DNA of 64,000 nt from Thermoplasmata archaeon (GTDB lineage Archaea > Thermoplasmatota > Thermoplasmata > Lutacidiplasmatales > SKW197). Every line of letters starts with the position of its first letter. Positions within the stretch are counted from its first letter, which is position 1. The stretch lies in the NCBI GenBank assembly GCA_038874435.1, contig JAVZCK010000005.1, forward strand, positions 1-64,000, written 5' to 3'. A program made the position numbers and the translations under genes. The notes under the pieces were generated by a model. It had not been told where the DNA came from and searched no databases. It worked only from the letters and a program-made list of their open reading frames with translations. Positions 2,294-36,642 of the stretch are shown one piece after another.

Positions 2294-3519
2294 CTATTCC
2301 CCCTCTTTCTCAAGTCAAGGTAACGAACCGTTACTAAAAGAAGCATGAGTCCAGCACACAGAACAAGGAACAGGAAGACAGAGAGCGTTCCTGAATGATC
2401 ACTTAAAAAGCCAGCAACTGGTGGGCCAATACTCATGCCTGCAGAGATCACAATGCTGTAAAGTGCCATAGTTACCCCCTTTGCTCTCTGTGGACATTCA
2501 TCTGCAAGAGATGCTAAAGCACTGGGTCCAAATGCTCCTGCTAGAAATGCGGAAATGCCCAGCAACCCAAGTAATGGTTTTGAGCTCATGAGAACAGAAA
2601 TTAGACCCTCCACATTATTAGTTGGAGATGCATAAACGCTGTAGGCGACCGTGGAAACCACACCAATAACACCAACGGTGCCAATGAACAATACAGGAAT
2701 TCTTCCATACTTATCTGCCAGTTTTCCATAGAAAATTTGGGTAGCTAGGAAAATTGTACCGCCACCTCCTAGCACAAGGGCGAGAGTTGTACCTGGCATT
2801 GAAATCTGGGCACTTTCCATGCTGAAGAATGAAAGAATCACACCAATCATTATATAGAGCATGAGCCAGGGAAGCACAAGTAGCAGAATTTCCCTAGATG
2901 TCAAAACACTTATCACATGCTTAGGAGTAATTTCTTTAGCAGTAAATTTGTGTAGTTCTGGCTCAACAATTGAGAGATAGGCAAAACCTAAACCTGCAAG
3001 TGCCACTGCACCTCCTAACAGAAATGGGATTGATAAAGAGCTAGAGAATGCGTCAACTAGGACACCACCGACAAGAAAACCACTGAACCAGCCAAAGAGA
3101 TTTGCAAAATCAAACGCACCCATCTCCCTTCCTCTTGTGTGCTTTGCGGCATAGTCGGCCACAAGAGCTAGTGAGGCGACAAGAATTGCAGCCGCTGCCA
3201 CACCGTGGAAGGCATTGATTATCATCAGAAGATAAGGATTTGTTGTGAGAGCGTATAGGAAGAGAGAGAGGGCACCAGTTAAAAGTCCTGCAAGTAAAAC
3301 TCTCTTTCTTCCAAACCTATCCACAGCTAACCCTATGAACATCACAGAAATCATCTCTGCAAAAGGAGAGGCACCCCATATCAAACCAAACATGAAATCA
3401 GAGACAGTGTGGCGAAGATAGTACGGTAGAACAATCAAAATGATGCCAAAGCAAAGACGAATAATGAAAGTAGAAGTGTAGAGGGCCAAAAGCATCTTCC
3501 CATACCAATCGATTTTCAT
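2290..3519 (-). CDS. Major facilitator superfamily transporter
   Basis: 409 residues, rich in hydrophobic helices consistent with 12 membrane segments. The loop between helices 2 and 3 reads DRFGRKR, the classic MFS A-motif, and a related ADKYGRIPV occurs in the second half. The protein probably exports or imports a small molecule by proton antiport; the substrate cannot be read from the sequence. It starts 3 nt after the stop of the DUF373 gene and its own stop overlaps the TTG start of the radical SAM gene, so the three are very likely co-transcribed. Confidence 0.85.
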   Translation of the reverse strand: MKIDWYGKMLLALYTSTFIIRLCFGIILIVLPYYLRHTVSDFMFGLIWGASPFAEMISVMFIGLAVDRFGRKRVLLAGLLTGALSLFLYALTTNPYLLMIINAFHGVAAAAILVASLALVADYAAKHTRGREMGAFDFANLFGWFSGFLVGGVLVDAFSSSLSIPFLLGGAVALAGLGFAYLSIVEPELHKFTAKEITPKHVISVLTSREILLLVLPWLMLYIMIGVILSFFSMESAQISMPGTTLALVLGGGGTIFLATQIFYGKLADKYGRIPVLFIGTVGVIGVVSTVAYSVYASPTNNVEGLISVLMSSKPLLGLLGISAFLAGAFGPSALASLADECPQRAKGVTMALYSIVISAGMSIGPPVAGFLSDHSGTLSVFLFLVLCAGLMLLLVTVRYLDLRKRGNS

Positions 3520-5891: not shown

Positions 5892-6854
5892 TTACCCTTC
5901 CCATCCATGCAATCTAGGCACGAATGCCATGAGAACTGCCTGCTGGGTTATCTGCACTCTGTCGGTAAGCCCTTTGGAGAGCAAACCAATTGCCCCAATG
6001 CTCTGTCCAATTTTTTTTTCGCCGTAAATCTCTTCAAACGCCTCCTCGATGCTCCTTCCCTTCTTAACAGTTTCAATGACTTCTGGCGGATATGAAAAGC
6101 CAGGACCATGCCCCAGCGTGATTCGTCCATACTTATCCACGATCGCACAATACTGCACATCAAAATAATTCTTCATCTGTTTGTTGTAAAAGAGACCTGC
6201 CTCTATTCCAATGCCGTAATCACAATCCCCTATTGCATTTAGAGCACGGTTCTTTGCACCTTTAACTGTCTTGCCCTCAAATGGCTGCTTCCCAACGCCA
6301 GTATCAACACTTCTTGGATAAAGCTTCATCTCAAGCGCTGGAAAGATTTTTGCAAGCACTGATTTTGCAGCTTCAACCTTAACAGGATTTGTAGAACCCA
6401 GAGCAATCGTAAGGGGCTTTAATCGTTTACCAAGCCGATTGATTTCACCTGCCCTTATTCTTGTTGAGGAGATAGGGAATAGGTCCTCAGCTAGTACTCT
6501 TTTCACAACTACAATCTTGAGCTTCCGGAGCCCTTTCTTCACCCTCTTTCTGTTAATCTCCACTGCTCTCTGCACTGTCTCTGATGAGACCACAAGGGCA
6601 TCCAGTCCTTTCTTAAGTGTGATGCCGTATGCATCATTCAACATGAGAATCTCATAGGGTTTTCCGAATTTTTCCGCAAATTCAATCAGAGTTTTTTTTC
6701 GTATCTCGTATGAATTTACCCCTCCCTTATTAGATGCGAATTTATCGCTGGTCAAGCCAATCAAAACCTTGTCTCCCACTTCAAATGCCTTCTTGAGCAA
6801 TGCCTCGTGCCCTTTGTGAAACAAGTCAAATGTTCCACCAACACCTACGATCAT
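5892..6854 (-). CDS. coaD: Phosphopantetheine adenylyltransferase fused to a DUF84 NTPase
   Basis: 320 residues in two domains. Residues 1-147 are an archaeal CoaD-type nucleotidyltransferase: GGTFDLFHKGH at 6-16 is the HxGH site and ISSTRIR is the second nucleotide-binding motif. This enzyme transfers AMP to 4'-phosphopantetheine in coenzyme A synthesis. Residues 148-320 begin LTIALGSTNPVKVEA and continue with GIGIEAGL, the DUF84 fold of inosine/xanthosine triphosphatases that remove non-canonical purine nucleotides. The two activities are normally on separate proteins, so this is a fusion. Its ATG overlaps the stop of the DUF2116 gene by 4 nt. Confidence 0.85.
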   Translation of the reverse strand: MIVGVGGTFDLFHKGHEALLKKAFEVGDKVLIGLTSDKFASNKGGVNSYEIRKKTLIEFAEKFGKPYEILMLNDAYGITLKKGLDALVVSSETVQRAVEINRKRVKKGLRKLKIVVVKRVLAEDLFPISSTRIRAGEINRLGKRLKPLTIALGSTNPVKVEAAKSVLAKIFPALEMKLYPRSVDTGVGKQPFEGKTVKGAKNRALNAIGDCDYGIGIEAGLFYNKQMKNYFDVQYCAIVDKYGRITLGHGPGFSYPPEVIETVKKGRSIEEAFEEIYGEKKIGQSIGAIGLLSKGLTDRVQITQQAVLMAFVPRLHGWEG

Positions 6855-14621: not shown

Positions 14622-16754
14622 TTAAAGAAAAAGTTTTCTGCTGCAGTCTACTGCCATCACAATCTCTGGTGCCTCAGAGGGTGTCAGTTTTGAGTTGTAT
14701 GCTTGAAGGAATTCATCCCACTGCGTTTGTTCTGTGAAGACACCCGAAGAAGCATATCCGCTAACACAGCTTGCACAGCCGCTTGGGAAGTAGATGCTAA
14801 TTCCCTTACAGAAGCTAACGCTGGGGGTGGCTCTGTAGACCATAACAGTTGAGGAAACCTGGCTCATCACATTAGCGGCTGCGCTCTTCAAACTGCTGGA
14901 ATTTGCGTATTTCTGGATGTTTTCTGCGAATTGATAAAGGTCAACTGTATTGTAGCCAGTTGAATCAAAGATTACACCACAAGCATTCCTTGCTTTGGTT
15001 ATGTTTTCTTTATCCTTTGATAACTCACTAATTAATGCACTTGCGAAACTATCCACTGCACTGACAAGCCCTGGTACTGCACTAGCACTGTATGCTGCAA
15101 TTGCTTGGGTGGTATAGCTTGCATCATCAACTGGAGTTGCAACATTGATTATTGTTGTCGCCAAAGCTGCACCCGAGATGCCGGGATTGCCTACAATTGC
15201 CCCGACAATCCTGTTCTGCGGGAAGGAGGATGTCCAACCCACTGTCTCGCTTGCTACAACATAGTCCACATATGGATAAACCTGTGCTAGGACTTCAATA
15301 GCACCCATCAGGCAGTCATCAAAGTAAAGCACATCCACATTGTGCCCACTGAACTGTTTGAGAGCTTCAACACCGTTAGCGATTTCTATAAGGTCGAGAT
15401 TGTCACCGCCATTCGTGTCATCCCAGCAACAGCCAAGCCACGAGCCCCCATGGTTCTCAGGGTTCACAAGGTAGTGTTCACCCTGGAATCGCTGGGCACC
15501 CCATATCAGGAAGCCAATCCATGTATCTCTATCACCCATGTTTACCTCTCCCAAACTCATGAGTGCATTCTGGGAAGTTGGAGACATGCCTTTCGTAACA
15601 AAGTATCTGTATGCGCCGCTACTGGCATGGTCAATCTGGACTACAATGCTAACATCTCTTGTGGAGCCCACACTCGCCACATCCATAAAGTCCTCCACCA
15701 TGTACTGGTCAAGGTTATTGTCGCCATCGTAGTAGAACAGAACTGTCCACTTTGCTTTGACAACCTGGAACGAGATTGTCGGGTCGTTGTTGCTTTCTCC
15801 AGTCCCAATGTAAGTTCCTGTGGCTTTGTTTGCCTCGCTCACAACGTAGGTTGTGTCGATTACAACTCTGACCGTGTGAGAACCTGGTTCTGACACATAG
15901 ACAGTTGAGCTTGAGAAGGAGAAGGAGGTCCCTACGCCAAGCCCTGAGGTTGTCTTGGTACCATAGAGTTTTCCGTCAACAAAGATTTTCGTGTAAAAAG
16001 TACCGGCGGCATTCGCATCTCCAGCATTCTTTACCGTGGTATATACCTTGAACGGCTGACCTGAAGTTATTGTGGTTGTTGTGCTTCCATATGTGTCCAC
16101 GATCCAGGTTTTCTCAACTACAAGGTCGGGGGCTGTAAACCATTGCACCGCCGATTTTATGTTGTTTTTCTCATTGCTCTCTGGCACGCTATTTGTTGAA
16201 TCTGCCACTACCATCACGGTGTGATAGCCCGGTCCGAGCTTATTTGTGGTTTTGTAAACAGTTGTAGATGTTTCTGGCTCAAGTACATCTATCCACACTG
16301 TTCCAAGTGAGATGTTTGCATTTCCATACTGGCTCTTGAACTCCACAGAAAAGCCAGAGGCAGCCACTTCTCCATAGTTGGTTAGGGTCGCAGTAATCGT
16401 GATGGACTGGTAGGCAGTTGGTGCTGTTGGGGAAATTGACATGCTTTTCACAATTATGTCTGCTGCACCGCCTACTCCACTAACATCAGGGTAGCCTGTA
16501 TCAATTGATATTTCAGGTTGAGCATACACCACTGGCTCCGCATAATATCCCTCAAAAACTTCCTCCACTTCGTTCTCTTCCATGTATGTAGTTGGGATAA
16601 CTGGATTGTTAAGATGGTCTGCGACTTTTACCTGAGGTTCAACTAAAACAGGGTTAGAGGATGTACTCATTCCTGGGATAGTGACAGAGATAGCGCTTGC
16701 TATCAAAGCAAAAAGCAGCCCAATTCCAATTATCATCCTGGTATTGTTATTCAT
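14622..16754 (-). CDS. Secreted clostripain-like cysteine peptidase (C11) with two CARDB domains
   Basis: 710 residues. A signal peptide or anchor (about 6-26) is followed by two CARDB-type adhesion/Ig-like domains (about 100-208 and 209-333) and a C11 peptidase domain (about 334-690). His435 in NPENHGGSW and Cys481 in FDDCLMGAIEV match the catalytic dyad of clostripain-like enzymes, which cleave after basic residues. Acidic VLFYYDGDNNLDQY opens the catalytic domain. The product should act outside the cell, on proteins for nutrition or on surface proteins. Start ATG 16754 has AGGAGGTG upstream and its own promoter. The opposite-strand neighbour is a pilin-like module. Confidence 0.87.
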   Translation of the reverse strand: MNNNTRMIIGIGLLFALIASAISVTIPGMSTSSNPVLVEPQVKVADHLNNPVIPTTYMEENEVEEVFEGYYAEPVVYAQPEISIDTGYPDVSGVGGAADIIVKSMSISPTAPTAYQSITITATLTNYGEVAASGFSVEFKSQYGNANISLGTVWIDVLEPETSTTVYKTTNKLGPGYHTVMVVADSTNSVPESNEKNNIKSAVQWFTAPDLVVEKTWIVDTYGSTTTTITSGQPFKVYTTVKNAGDANAAGTFYTKIFVDGKLYGTKTTSGLGVGTSFSFSSSTVYVSEPGSHTVRVVIDTTYVVSEANKATGTYIGTGESNNDPTISFQVVKAKWTVLFYYDGDNNLDQYMVEDFMDVASVGSTRDVSIVVQIDHASSGAYRYFVTKGMSPTSQNALMSLGEVNMGDRDTWIGFLIWGAQRFQGEHYLVNPENHGGSWLGCCWDDTNGGDNLDLIEIANGVEALKQFSGHNVDVLYFDDCLMGAIEVLAQVYPYVDYVVASETVGWTSSFPQNRIVGAIVGNPGISGAALATTIINVATPVDDASYTTQAIAAYSASAVPGLVSAVDSFASALISELSKDKENITKARNACGVIFDSTGYNTVDLYQFAENIQKYANSSSLKSAAANVMSQVSSTVMVYRATPSVSFCKGISIYFPSGCASCVSGYASSGVFTEQTQWDEFLQAYNSKLTPSEAPEIVMAVDCSRKLFL

Positions 16755-29112: not shown

Positions 29113-29345
29113 CTTCTCAAATCAGTGAAAAAGTATACAATATAATGGGTAGAGAGATGGGACACATCGGCAGATTCATTGTCCAAAAACAGTGCAAGGA
29201 CTTAGGAATAAATCCAGACGATATTAAGCCAGAAGAACTTCCAAAAATCGCAAAAGCCTTAGGCGATGTTATGAAGACCTTTGGGGGCGAGGAAAAGGGT
29301 AAGGCGATTGAAGCAGAAATCAAACGACTTGCCCAGAGCCACTAA
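29109..29345 (+). CDS. Small protein coupled to the STAND ATPase
   Basis: 78 residues, mostly helical, no cysteine pair or membrane helix; it ends EAEIKRLAQSH. The sequence VQKQCKDLGINPDDIKPEEL has a loop pattern that may bind a ligand, but I do not recognise the family. Start ATG overlaps the ATPase stop (ATGA), and GGAGGTGAC just upstream is a strong ribosome binding site, so it is translated as part of that unit. Its stop overlaps the stop region of the convergent galT by 4 nt. Confidence 0.7.
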   Translation: MTSQISEKVYNIMGREMGHIGRFIVQKQCKDLGINPDDIKPEELPKIAKALGDVMKTFGGEEKGKAIEAEIKRLAQSH

Positions 29346-30340
29346 TTTATTTTTTCCCTCAATGTTTTTGCATTCTCTTCTGGTTGGGAGATATTAACCG
29401 TAATCCCAGAACCCATTTCAAGTCCAGCAGGTATGGTCAATCTAGGCGTAATTTCAAGATACCAGTGATAATAATCCACCTCCTTTAAATAAGAGGGTGC
29501 GGTATGAAGGACAAGATTGTATGCTGGGTCGTTCAGTGCGAGTTTCAATGCCAAAAGCACTTTATGGAGGACAACACCAAGCGATGTCAGGGCTTCAGAG
29601 GTTATTTCAGAGAAGTGGCTGTGATGCCGTTTAGGCATTATATGTATCTCGTACTGAAGCTTGGCTGCATATGGAACAAATGCCACAAAATGTGCGTTTT
29701 CATATATAATCCGCTCGCTCGCATTTTGCTCTTCGCTTATTGTGTCGCAGTAGACACATCTTCCGTTTTCATGTGAATAGCATCTGGCAGTGTTTAAGAG
29801 GTCCATTATGTGTGTGGGTACGAACGCAAGCCCAACTACTTGAGAGTGAGGATGTATCAATGATGTTCCTGCCTCTTTTCCATGGTTACGAAAAAGAATC
29901 ACTGACTTAATCCACGGGTTTTTATACAAATACTTAACACATTCAAAATAGGCCTTGACAACATTGAAAACCTCAGATTCATTCATGTCAGGGATATCCC
30001 TATTGTGCAATGGTGTTTCTACTATTACATAGTGAAAGCCAGTCGCTGCTCTTTTTCTGAAAAATCCCTCCGTGTGTGCAGTTCCACTATTTTCAGAGAC
30101 CACTGGAAATTTGTTAGGAATTACACGAAGTTTCCATTTGCGGCTTCCTTCTTCTACATAAGAAAACAATTCCTGAGGTGTATTTGCCTCGTTACCAGGA
30201 CAGAATGGGCAGTCGGCTTTCCATTCAGGCAATGGCTCTTTTTGTTTTATCTCGCCAGGCACTTCATGTTTTCTCTTTGCTCTCTCACTTGCGACAATTA
30301 CCCATTCACCAGCAACCCTATTAAACCGTAACTCATTCAT
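29342..30340 (-). CDS. galT: Galactose-1-phosphate uridylyltransferase
   Basis: 332 residues. Zinc ligands Cys44 and Cys47 lie in ADCPFCPGNE, and the active site is HPHSQ with the nucleophile His165 (His163-Pro-His165). FRNHGKEAGTS precedes it, as in the family. It exchanges UMP between UDP-glucose and galactose-1-phosphate (Leloir pathway), or acts as a related sugar-1-phosphate nucleotidyltransferase. Start ATG 30340 has a weak TTTTTAACTA box about 25 nt upstream and probably no leader. Confidence 0.88.
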   Translation of the reverse strand: MNELRFNRVAGEWVIVASERAKRKHEVPGEIKQKEPLPEWKADCPFCPGNEANTPQELFSYVEEGSRKWKLRVIPNKFPVVSENSGTAHTEGFFRKRAATGFHYVIVETPLHNRDIPDMNESEVFNVVKAYFECVKYLYKNPWIKSVILFRNHGKEAGTSLIHPHSQVVGLAFVPTHIMDLLNTARCYSHENGRCVYCDTISEEQNASERIIYENAHFVAFVPYAAKLQYEIHIMPKRHHSHFSEITSEALTSLGVVLHKVLLALKLALNDPAYNLVLHTAPSYLKEVDYYHWYLEITPRLTIPAGLEMGSGITVNISQPEENAKTLREKIN

Positions 30341-30381: not shown

Positions 30382-31149
30382 TCATCTTACTTTAATCAAT
30401 TTTAAACTTTCCTCCTCGCTGAAATGCAACTCTCCAGGCAACACAAGTACATGAGGTGGCTTCCCAAAGTCCACACGCTCTATTTCCGAGATTGGCCCGT
30501 ATGCAGCAATGCAATCAGGGCTCCCAGCCCTTGCAACAACACAGAGTTTAGTTTCGGCCGTGAACAAGCCCTTCTTTTCCCTTTCCTCCAACTCTACCAG
30601 AATATGGATTCCTTCATTCGCTGACATCAGATAGTTCTCCTCTGCCTTAATGTCGAGCAAGATAAGAGTGTGAAGCCCGTTTTCATGGTTTTTTAGAATT
30701 GAGTAATAGGGAGATGTTGGGAAGAATCCCTTTTCTGGCTTTGGTAAACTCACACATCTTCCAAATTTGTATATGTGAAGGCCAAGGATTGCAGGAGCCG
30801 CAGTGTATATCGAAGCCCCATGAATAATCTGAGTTTTAATTCCACGCTTTATTGCTTCTACCCTTAGGAAGCTATGCGTAGTTGCTGTCATTGAGTCCCC
30901 TGCACAAAGCAACACCACATTTTTCTCTTTAGCTAGACCAAGAAGATTATCAAAATTTTGTTCGATATCCTCTCGTTTTAGCAGATTTATTTTCCTTCCA
31001 TATAGATTTTCAAGCATTGCGATTTTCGCACCTGCAAGCACAGAGGTGTAGAATTCTGCGAAAACAAGCTCGGCATTTCTCACTACTTCAAGCCCTCTCA
31101 ATGAAATATCTAATTCATCATACAATCCTAAACCCACAAATGTAATCAT
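30382..31149 (-). CDS. dphB: Diphthine synthase
   Basis: 255 residues of the tetrapyrrole-methylase fold. It begins MITFVGLGLYDELDISLRG, with LLCAGDSMTATTHS and IIHGASIYTAAP further on, all as in archaeal diphthine synthases. It trimethylates the modified histidine of elongation factor aEF2 using S-adenosylmethionine, the second step of diphthamide synthesis. The start ATG overlaps the stop of the kinase-ferredoxin gene by 1 nt (TGATG), so the two are cotranscribed. Confidence 0.92.
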   Translation of the reverse strand: MITFVGLGLYDELDISLRGLEVVRNAELVFAEFYTSVLAGAKIAMLENLYGRKINLLKREDIEQNFDNLLGLAKEKNVVLLCAGDSMTATTHSFLRVEAIKRGIKTQIIHGASIYTAAPAILGLHIYKFGRCVSLPKPEKGFFPTSPYYSILKNHENGLHTLILLDIKAEENYLMSANEGIHILVELEEREKKGLFTAETKLCVVARAGSPDCIAAYGPISEIERVDFGKPPHVLVLPGELHFSEEESLKLIKVR

Positions 31150-32327
31150 CAGATTTCACTCTTCCTTACTGGAATCTCCTTCTCATTGATAAAGCTCATC
31201 GCCTCATCCCAAGTTAGCAAACCATACTTTGCACCGAACTGTTGGACAACAGAGGCGCCATTCGCACTTCCTACTTTAAGAGCTGTTTCAATATCTCTTC
31301 CCTTCGCCAATGCTGATATGAATCCAACAGTGAAAGCATCACCAGCTCCAAGAGTGGAGACAACAGGCACATCGTATGCTGGAAACATGTAACGGAATTT
31401 ACCATCGTAACACTGTACTCCCTTCTTTCCATCTGTAATTACCACAAGTTTGACACCCATCGCATGAATCTTTTTCAAAATTGGATCAAGATTGTCAGCC
31501 CAGGGTTCATTGGTTATTGCCCTTGTAGGACAGCGTTCTACACAAAGTCCACACTTTGTGCATTTTTCCTGATGTCTTGTTACCGCCTTTCCACTCTCCA
31601 CTGCAAAAATTTTCACAGGGCATACATCCACACAGGTACCACACCCTATGCATCTTTCTTCATCCACAACCATCTGAGAATACTTTATTCCAGTGAAATT
31701 TGATGCCTCTTCTTTGTTCAAAAAGAGAATGTCTATTCGTGATATAAACGGAAGCATCTTCTCGATACCCCTTGAAATCTGGGTGTTACCTGGGTTCCAG
31801 CAAATCTTCACATCCCTATTTGCGAGTAATTCCGCAAATTTAGAAGGAATTTCACTTGCCTTACCAGTCATTGGTCCAAGATATAGAAATTTTGTATCCG
31901 TGGCTTTATTTATGTCAATCTCATCAAACGCTAAAAGATTATTCGCGCCTCTGTAGGTTAGAACCGTTCTTTCGCCCTCAAACGTAGTAATTATTACAGA
32001 ATAGCCAGTTTCCTCCTCAACTCTAAAAGCAAGAGAAGTATCAACCCCCTCTCTCTCAAGCTCACTCAAAATAATTTTATCGCTTTCATCGTTTCCCAAA
32101 GCACTACAGAATCCTGTTCTCAATCCCATCTTTCCGAATCCATACGCAGTATTTGAGGCCCCTCCTCCTGTGGTAAACATAATTTTATCTACATTAATTT
32201 TGGCACCATACTCAAGACAAAGGTAGGCCTTTGTTTGTAGCATCTCCCGCATTTCCAGAACCTTGGCGATGTTCGTTTTCACAAACACATCCTGGGTGGC
32301 ACTTCCTATGCAGACCACATCGTACAT
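31149..32327 (-). CDS. PfkB-family sugar kinase with an inserted 2x[4Fe-4S] ferredoxin domain
   Basis: 392 residues from ATG 32327. The ribokinase fold is complete: DVVCIGSATQD at the start, GGGASNTAYGFGKMG, the NKEEA region, VVITDGKKG and STLGAGDAF with the catalytic Asp at 330. Between NKEEA and VVITDG lies an extra segment (about 217-272) with two CX2CX2CX3C-P clusters (Cys226, 229, 232, 236 and 256, 259, 262, 266), a bacterial-type ferredoxin. Kinase substrate is unknown (sugar or nucleoside). The frame runs upstream to 32597, but those 90 residues are Cys/Phe-rich, unlike the family, and overlap the divergent mazG. It is followed by dphB. Confidence 0.85.
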   Translation of the reverse strand: MYDVVCIGSATQDVFVKTNIAKVLEMREMLQTKAYLCLEYGAKINVDKIMFTTGGGASNTAYGFGKMGLRTGFCSALGNDESDKIILSELEREGVDTSLAFRVEEETGYSVIITTFEGERTVLTYRGANNLLAFDEIDINKATDTKFLYLGPMTGKASEIPSKFAELLANRDVKICWNPGNTQISRGIEKMLPFISRIDILFLNKEEASNFTGIKYSQMVVDEERCIGCGTCVDVCPVKIFAVESGKAVTRHQEKCTKCGLCVERCPTRAITNEPWADNLDPILKKIHAMGVKLVVITDGKKGVQCYDGKFRYMFPAYDVPVVSTLGAGDAFTVGFISALAKGRDIETALKVGSANGASVVQQFGAKYGLLTWDEAMSFINEKEIPVRKSEI

Positions 32328-32435: not shown

Positions 32436-32807
32436 ATGGCAGATGAAAAGGTTACACTTGAGAATCTGAAGCAGCTTGTAGCCAAGTTTAACAACGAGAG
32501 GAAATGGGAAATTTATCATCAACCAAAAGAACTGGCAATAGCAATTGCAGTTGAGAGTGCAGAACTCCTTGATATCTTCAAATGGCAGCACAGCCAAGCA
32601 GTGACTTCTAAAGTGGAAAACTACATGAAAATTAAGGAGGAGATGGCTGACATCCTTATACTTCTACTTTCCCTAGCTAACTCCTTAAACATTGACTTAA
32701 GTGATGCCATTGTATCAAAAATGGAAAAGAACGCCATGAAGTATCCTGTGAATACAGATTACACGAAAATCTGGAACTTAGAAAAAAACAAAAACTCCCC
32801 ACTGTGA
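32436..32807 (+). CDS. MazG-like nucleotide pyrophosphohydrolase
   Basis: 123 residues. The helical MazG pattern is present: AIAVESAELLDIFKW (Glu-x-x-Glu type metal site) and EEMADILILLL (second acidic pair). Such enzymes hydrolyse NTPs or dNTPs to monophosphates, often to clean non-canonical nucleotides. The single short domain is like the dCTPase/RS21 group rather than the double-domain MazG of bacteria. The stop codon overlaps the GTG start of the radical SAM gene (GTGA). Confidence 0.8.
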   Translation: MADEKVTLENLKQLVAKFNNERKWEIYHQPKELAIAIAVESAELLDIFKWQHSQAVTSKVENYMKIKEEMADILILLLSLANSLNIDLSDAIVSKMEKNAMKYPVNTDYTKIWNLEKNKNSPL

Positions 32808-33706
32808 ATATGCAAAAAATGAAGGTTTATCAGGTCTGGCCCTTCTGTCCCTCAATATCAATCTCAGGCAATACCTGCCAACTGATGTGTGAGCATTGTA
32901 AGGCACACTACCTTAGTTACATGTACCCAGCTGAAACCCCTGAGAAATTCAAGCAAATCACGGAGAAACTAACAAAAGAAGGTGCAAAGGGATTCCTCGT
33001 TAGTGGAGGTTGCGATAGAAATGGAAAAATGTTGAACTTAGAAAAGATGCTTCCCGTAATTCGAAAACTTCATGAAGAGGGGTTTGTGATAAAACTTCAC
33101 ACCGGATTTATGGAACCAGAGACCGCTAATCTTGTTGTGGACGCCATTGATGTTGCTTCTATGGAGTTCCCCTCCTCGTTCTCAGCAGTTAAAGAAATTT
33201 TTCATATAAATGAAGGTGTGGAGAAATACGTTGAAACTTTCAGAAATTTGAGAAACGCCGGGGTAAAGCACATAGTTCCACATCTTTGTATTGGTCTCTA
33301 CCACGGTACGCTTTCAGACGAAAATGAAGCAATTGAAAAATTGAAGAAAGTTTTTACACCTGAAAAAATCGTTTTTATTGTATTCATCCCAACACCAGGC
33401 ACACCCTGTAGCACTGACCCACTTCCATTACCAGAAGATATAGAAAAAGTCATTAGGAATGCAAAAATCCAATTGCCGGAGACAGAGCTTGTGCTAGGTG
33501 CCCTTCGCCCCAGATTTGCTCGGATAAATGGAATAACCCAGAATTACATCCAGGAAATAGAGTTTCGTGCAATTCGTGCGGGTGTCTCAGGTATCGAAGT
33601 GCCTTCCAGAAAAACAACTGAGTTTCTAAGACAAAACTATGAGATTGTGCGGATTGGTGCATTTGGGGCATTGCCTTCAGAATTTGAGGAAAATTTTATA
33701 ATTTAA
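32804..33706 (+). CDS. Radical SAM protein, COG1856 type
   Basis: 300 residues. The cluster motif is Cys25-x3-Cys29-x2-Cys32 in TCQLMCEHCKAHY, the canonical spacing, followed by VSGGCDRNGK and IKLHTGF. The family has been described as a homologue of biotin synthase without known substrate. GTG 32804 overlaps the mazG stop; ATG at 32810 or 32819 are alternative starts that do not change the domain. The 3' end overlaps that of the convergent antiporter by 4 nt. Confidence 0.8.
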   Translation: MNMQKMKVYQVWPFCPSISISGNTCQLMCEHCKAHYLSYMYPAETPEKFKQITEKLTKEGAKGFLVSGGCDRNGKMLNLEKMLPVIRKLHEEGFVIKLHTGFMEPETANLVVDAIDVASMEFPSSFSAVKEIFHINEGVEKYVETFRNLRNAGVKHIVPHLCIGLYHGTLSDENEAIEKLKKVFTPEKIVFIVFIPTPGTPCSTDPLPLPEDIEKVIRNAKIQLPETELVLGALRPRFARINGITQNYIQEIEFRAIRAGVSGIEVPSRKTTEFLRQNYEIVRIGAFGALPSEFEENFII

Positions 33707-36538: not shown

Positions 36539-36642
36539 TGCGGTTGCCGGGATTCGAACCCGGGCTAGAGGCTTTACCCGAACCTTTCTTTCTAAGAAAG
36601 GTTCCTGGGAAGCCTCAGTCCTAACCACTAGACTACAACCGC
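36539..36642 (-). tRNA. tRNA-Gly(CCC) with a 32-nt intron
   Basis: On the minus strand the acceptor stem is GCGGTTG/CAACCGC with discriminator A at 36539. The D arm is GTCTAGTGGTTAGGAC, the anticodon stem GAGGC/GCCTC and the T arm CCGGGTTCGAATCCCGG. The loop reads TTCCCA, giving anticodon CCC, then a 32-nt insertion before the last loop base, exactly the archaeal 37/38 site. The intron folds as an 11-bp perfect hairpin (GAACCTTTCTT and its complement around AGA). The mature tRNA has 72 nt and CCA is not encoded. The gene lies 2 nt from the stop of the upstream protein gene. Confidence 0.93.

Follow-up and report, generated by a model that had tools for sequence, protein, structure and literature searches.

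A minus-strand open reading frame of the window (the whole 64,000-nucleotide stretch of DNA analysed here) encodes a 392-amino acid PfkB (ribokinase-fold) protein that is interrupted by a predicted 2[4Fe-4S] ferredoxin domain, an architecture that is real, rare and conserved. The frame starts with an ATG at 32327 and extends to 31149 through 392 codons without a stop; its annotation is based on the ORF itself, on Pfam, on alignment and on an orthologue of equal length in the genome SKW197. Its parts, all on the minus strand, are: (i) an N-terminal kinase part (residues 1–215; 31683–32327), which carries D13, GG54-55, N59 and N204/E207 and is delimited by Pfam, alignment and a mostly high-confidence model, (ii) the inserted ferredoxin domain (residues ~216–276; 31500–31682), delimited by an alignment gap, Fer4/Fer4_7 matches and a model with a pLDDT of ~95, and (iii) a C-terminal kinase part (residues 277–392; 31152–31499), which contains the strand VVITDGKKG, the GAGD anion hole and the catalytic D330 and is again delimited by Pfam, alignment and model.

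The PfkB family model (PF00294) matched the protein at 6.6e-44 (150.9 bits for a cut-off of 25.8) in two stretches that flank the insert. The kinase signature residues are kept and are invariant or nearly so in a 19-row alignment (D13, G54-G55, N59, N204xxE207 and G327-A-G-D330). By sequence, motifs and fold, the protein is therefore a member of the PfkB family. Within the insert, eight cysteines form the motif CX2CX2CX3C twice, with the canonical spacing of ferredoxins; the motif search located C226-X2-C229-X2-C232-X3-C236 (cluster 1) at 31620–31652 and C256-X2-C259-X2-C262-X3-C266 (cluster 2) at 31530–31562, both on the minus strand. The corresponding codon pattern has 2 matches in the window, both of them inside the insert, for 0.17 expected by chance, and the eight cysteine columns are invariant when the insert is aligned with 18 ferredoxin segments. 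Fer4 (2e-17) and Fer4_7 (1.9e-13) were both found at residues ~219–271. By motif and modelled fold the insert is a 2[4Fe-4S] ferredoxin, predicted to bind its clusters. An earlier reading of the sequence alone (hereafter the sequence-only reading) had proposed two complete clusters at 31512–31679, which are indeed present and correspond exactly to residues 217–272, inside an otherwise intact PfkB kinase, which is also what we found, with PfkB sequence on both sides and no signature residue lost; the span that it gave is covered, and the insert as aligned is slightly longer at both ends.

SKW197 (a MAG, contig JAOAJK010000005.1) is the sole other genome of the genus, and it contains a 392-codon fusion gene that is 89% identical, aligns without gaps and lies in the same gene order. 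The fact that SKW197 is a MAG and that the genome of the window is a draft in 43 contigs could be taken to favour an artefact, i.e. a frameshift, an assembly join or a chimeric bin. However, synonymous sites are saturated between the two species (pS 0.66–0.74), and a second species at such divergence has the same gene of 392 codons, in the same order and with neither stop nor gap; the probability of an artefact is in our view negligible. The frameshift or assembly join against which the sequence-only reading had cautioned was thus rejected on the strength of the SKW197 orthologue, which is fused in the same way. Between the two species dN amounts to 0.042 for the insert, against 0.058 for the N-terminal and 0.072 for the C-terminal part of the kinase; the constraint on the insert is no weaker than that on the kinase. 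The dN/dS ratio of ~0.03 is a rough value because dS is saturated. All eight cysteines are conserved between the source species and SKW197. The same pattern of selection on the insert would be expected if it served only in binding or in electron transfer.

The alignment included 17 insert-less kinases from Thermoplasmata's phylum Thermoplasmatota, from Chloroflexota and from other groups, and all 17 show one single gap of ~61 residues at positions 216–276 of the fusion. The insert follows the helix whose first residues are N204xxE207 and precedes the one that runs towards the ATP-loop strand, VVITDGKKG. Separate modelling runs were used for kinase and ferredoxin because mixed alignments put the NxxE region onto the ferredoxin, and each AlphaFold2 run is confident for one of the two parts only. 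In the run on the kinase alignment the ribokinase fold is complete (mean pLDDT 81.7, and mostly >90 in the kinase blocks), with the insert poorly modelled since only two rows cover it; the top Foldseek matches of this model are the ribokinases 3h49, 1vm7, 9zpu and 1rkd, with TM-scores mostly of 0.8–0.89 when normalised by target length. The run on the ferredoxin alignment (mean pLDDT 58.8, kinase part poor) gave an insert folded as beta-alpha-beta twice, with a core pLDDT of ~95 and values of 83–96 over the block of residues 221–270; its predicted secondary structure is E218-221, H231-235, E241-244, E247-250, H261-265 and E271-274. Foldseek returned kinases only, at low TM, for this second model. 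Strands 218–221 and 271–274 end the ferredoxin core and are joined to helices 205–212 and 277–289 via linkers of ~5 and ~2 residues, respectively. On the basis of alignment, model and the general layout of the ribokinase fold, we take the insertion point to be in the large domain of this fold and not in its beta-sheet lid. The possibility, put forward for a check by structure prediction, that the insert folds as a ferredoxin on the kinase lid is consequently supported as to the fold and not as to the place, the site being the loop that links the NxxE helix to the one after it.

The fusion was detected in 2 of the 106 genomes of the order, which were all those available, and both belong to the same genus. 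No second lineage with the fusion was found in ~790 sampled Thermoplasmatota (400 genomes from the class and 390 from the phylum), no second fusion in 620 genomes of Chloroflexota (251), Bacillota (220) and Spirochaetota (149), and none by 8-residue patterns in contigs of 84,980 species or in plasmids. The pattern scan, which detects close relatives, is what covered the other archaeal phyla; in the large searches a few best candidates were scored per genome, among which a fusion would rank first. What matched in the sampled genomes was either insert-less kinase homologues, at ~25–33% identity, or ferredoxins alone, and literature searches returned no description of a PfkB or sugar kinase with a ferredoxin domain. 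Among the genomes searched, the fusion is limited to one genus, and the architecture deserves the qualification of unusual that it had been given from the sequence, no other such fusion being found there beyond the sister species. Another outcome that had been envisaged, homologues with the ferredoxin as a separate gene, is not borne out either: the homologous kinases are without insert and a ferredoxin gene lies nearby at one insert-less kinase locus only, among the loci fetched. At that locus (L054), an insert-less PfkB kinase (1135–2085) and a separate 2[4Fe-4S] ferredoxin segment (3009–3182) are ~1 kb apart, and the latter is possibly an unrelated oxidoreductase subunit.

As to the origin of the insert, the ferredoxin that matches it best among the genomes of the order that were searched is a stand-alone one of the same genus (50% identity in the source species, 52% in SKW197), which also ranks first when 37 ferredoxin segments are compared by local score. 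A ferredoxin tree, built on 55 columns, does not firmly place this protein as the donor. The explanation that we prefer as a whole, to which we give slightly less than an even chance, is that a single insertion of a stand-alone ferredoxin of the clostridial 2[4Fe-4S] type took place in the ancestor of the genus. In both species the stand-alone 2[4Fe-4S] ferredoxin that is the nearest relative found for the insert (L071, 250–474; L072, 2395–2760) adjoins an apparent ribosomal protein L15e.

The gene neighbourhood was also analysed. The start codon of dph5 (diphthine synthase; 30382–31149, minus strand; TIGR00522, 289 bits for a cut-off of 114) overlaps the pfkB stop, and the third gene of this same-strand run encodes a galT-like hexose-1-phosphate uridylyltransferase (29342–30340, minus strand; TIGR00209, 129 bits for a cut-off of 102); SKW197 has both genes in the same order. 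On the other side, a gene for a MazG-like nucleotide pyrophosphohydrolase (32436–32807, plus strand; PF12643, 3.5e-12) diverges from pfkB, in the same arrangement in SKW197, and is adjoined by a radical SAM gene (32804–33706, plus strand) whose product is LipS1-like. The context described in the sequence-only reading, with coupling to the diphthine synthase gene and divergence from mazG, is thus confirmed, and its radical SAM gene can be refined to a candidate lipoyl synthase, LipS1 being the best match just below the curated cut-off (NF053742, 209 bits for 230). The galT-like neighbour hints at, and does not prove, a link with hexose metabolism.

Radical SAM enzymes require a low-potential electron, and the LipS1-like gene is kept in SKW197. 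The ferredoxin might then be a tethered electron carrier for a partner redox enzyme, e.g. the LipS1-like protein, the kinase merely co-locating with it; that the insert is a canonical 2[4Fe-4S] ferredoxin, 50–52% identical to the free one of the genus, would agree with such a role. No metabolic link is known, however, between sugar phosphorylation and lipoyl synthesis, the radical SAM gene is on the opposite strand within a region whose gene order is conserved as a whole, and the genome possesses free ferredoxins. We regard a carrier function of this kind as quite unlikely.

In its own genome, the fusion alone exceeds the PfkB cut-off, and no ADP-dependent PFK/glucokinase was found there; RuBisCO (PF00016) is absent from the same genome, which is 95% complete. 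The models for ribose-1-phosphate kinase (NF053626, 116.6 bits for an equivalog cut-off of 330), ribokinase (TIGR02152, 113.5 for 299.7) and IolC (TIGR04382, 111.7 for 300) did not reach their cut-offs. A role as ribose-1-phosphate kinase in the pentose bisphosphate pathway was considered unlikely because the NF053626 cut-off is missed and because no RuBisCO was found. With all NCBIfam kinase models so far under their equivalog cut-offs and no substrate assignable, the kinase part could be a pseudo-enzyme that provides a redox protein with a scaffold for sensing a ligand or ATP, like plant FLN1/FLN2. This appears very improbable to us, since D13, GG54-55, N59, N204/E207 and the GAGD330 motif are all present, the kinase core is under purifying selection and no other PfkB was found in the genome.

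Our preferred interpretation, which falls a little short of an even chance, is that the protein is active on a sugar or nucleoside and would need its [4Fe-4S] clusters for kinase stability or activity. It is suggested by the fact that the linkers are short and the insert is attached to the NxxE helix, by the full conservation of the cysteines and by the analogy with archaeal Rpo3; cluster binding, the link from cluster state to kinase activity and the substrate are inferred. The ferredoxin would be fixed by its very short linkers between the helix that starts with the NxxE motif, which handles Mg and phosphate, and the one that runs into the ATP-binding strand; when loaded and folded, it would keep these two helices natively positioned. 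If the clusters were lost, upon exposure to oxygen or iron shortage, this would cause the insert to unfold and the activity or stability of the kinase to drop, so that sugar would be phosphorylated only when iron-sulfur supply and anoxia permit. The insertion point is at the distal end of the NxxE helix, and therefore the clusters would not need to contact the active site.

Short linkers and an insert situated on a surface loop would equally suit a docking or oligomerisation module, which would bind a partner or stabilise the fold and leave phosphorylation unregulated by cluster state; the Rpo3 ferredoxin domain, for instance, contributes chiefly to the assembly and stability of subunits (PMC5300874). 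On the other hand, the eight cysteines are here under strong constraint, while in Rpo3 one or both clusters have disappeared from many of the ferredoxin domains (PMC5300874), and a pure docking role seems unlikely, albeit deserving serious consideration. A more demanding version of the cluster-dependent kinase would have the redox state of the clusters, and not their mere presence, set phosphoryl transfer, carbohydrate entry being gated by the ferredoxin pool of the cell; we see this as decidedly unlikely. If true, it would be to our knowledge the first ribokinase-fold enzyme gated in this manner with an iron-sulfur domain of its own. The long retention of a ferredoxin in the only PfkB found in this uncultured archaeon suggests a tie between iron-sulfur status and the phosphorylation of carbohydrates or nucleosides.

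Other features were observed elsewhere in the window. The minus-strand frame at 5892–6854 encodes a fusion of pantetheine-phosphate adenylyltransferase with NTP phosphatase; bifunctional proteins of this family are known (PRK01170, whose cut-off is not reached). A 104-base tRNA gene at 36539–36642 (minus strand), matched by Rfam and missed by ARAGORN, probably contains an intron. At 14622–16754 (minus strand), a 710-amino acid protein has a clostripain-like peptidase region (TIGR02806, 2e-16) after apparent repeat domains.

Few kinases of sugars and nucleosides are as widespread as those of the PfkB type, and we know of none of the latter that carries a redox cofactor. The fusion shares with the PfkB/ribokinase family (PF00294) the full fold and all signature residues, and differs from it by the ~61-residue ferredoxin that separates the NxxE helix from its successor and by reaching no equivalog cut-off. 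With clostridial-type 2[4Fe-4S] ferredoxins (Fer4_7, PF12838) the insert shares both CX2CX2CX3C motifs and the modelled fold of beta-alpha-beta twice, but these are free proteins whereas the insert is embedded. COG1149 ATPases of the MinD superfamily have a ferredoxin inserted in an ATP-binding enzyme, which is of P-loop and not of ribokinase fold. In the case of plant FLN1/FLN2, a PfkB fold is tied to redox partners via thioredoxin z, and there is no ferredoxin domain. FLN1 and FLN2 are described as PfkB-like proteins (PMC3409070).

Archaeal Rpo3 (RNA polymerase subunit D) likewise has a ferredoxin inside a non-redox protein, but its host fold and function are unrelated to those of the kinase, and its ferredoxin segments are ~36% identical to the kinase insert. 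An Rpo3 with a two-cluster ferredoxin insert is encoded in the same genome, on the contig of the window at ~93 kb (L074, 1885–2724; NF001988, 318 bits), and the source organism therefore already uses such an insert in a non-redox protein. Removal of the ferredoxin or of either cluster from Methanosarcina acetivorans Rpo3 lowers assembly and activity of the RNA polymerase, and a function of the clusters in iron or oxygen sensing has been proposed (PMC5300874). For Thermoplasmatales, Rpo3 is listed with the ferredoxin domain present and the cluster motif absent (PMC5300874); the source lineage belongs to the same class, and its Rpo3 has retained both clusters. The coenzyme M synthase MMP16 also has a ferredoxin inserted in an enzyme domain (COG1900), of a different fold and in a host whose reaction is thought to need electrons (PMC12068725), and HdrA is another enzyme with an inserted ferredoxin (PMC9012536). 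The ribokinase fold is a new host fold for inserted ferredoxins, beside those known from Rpo3 and MMP16. The purpose of the ferredoxins in the latter two is debated, and in a small soluble kinase one could measure directly how the clusters affect catalysis.
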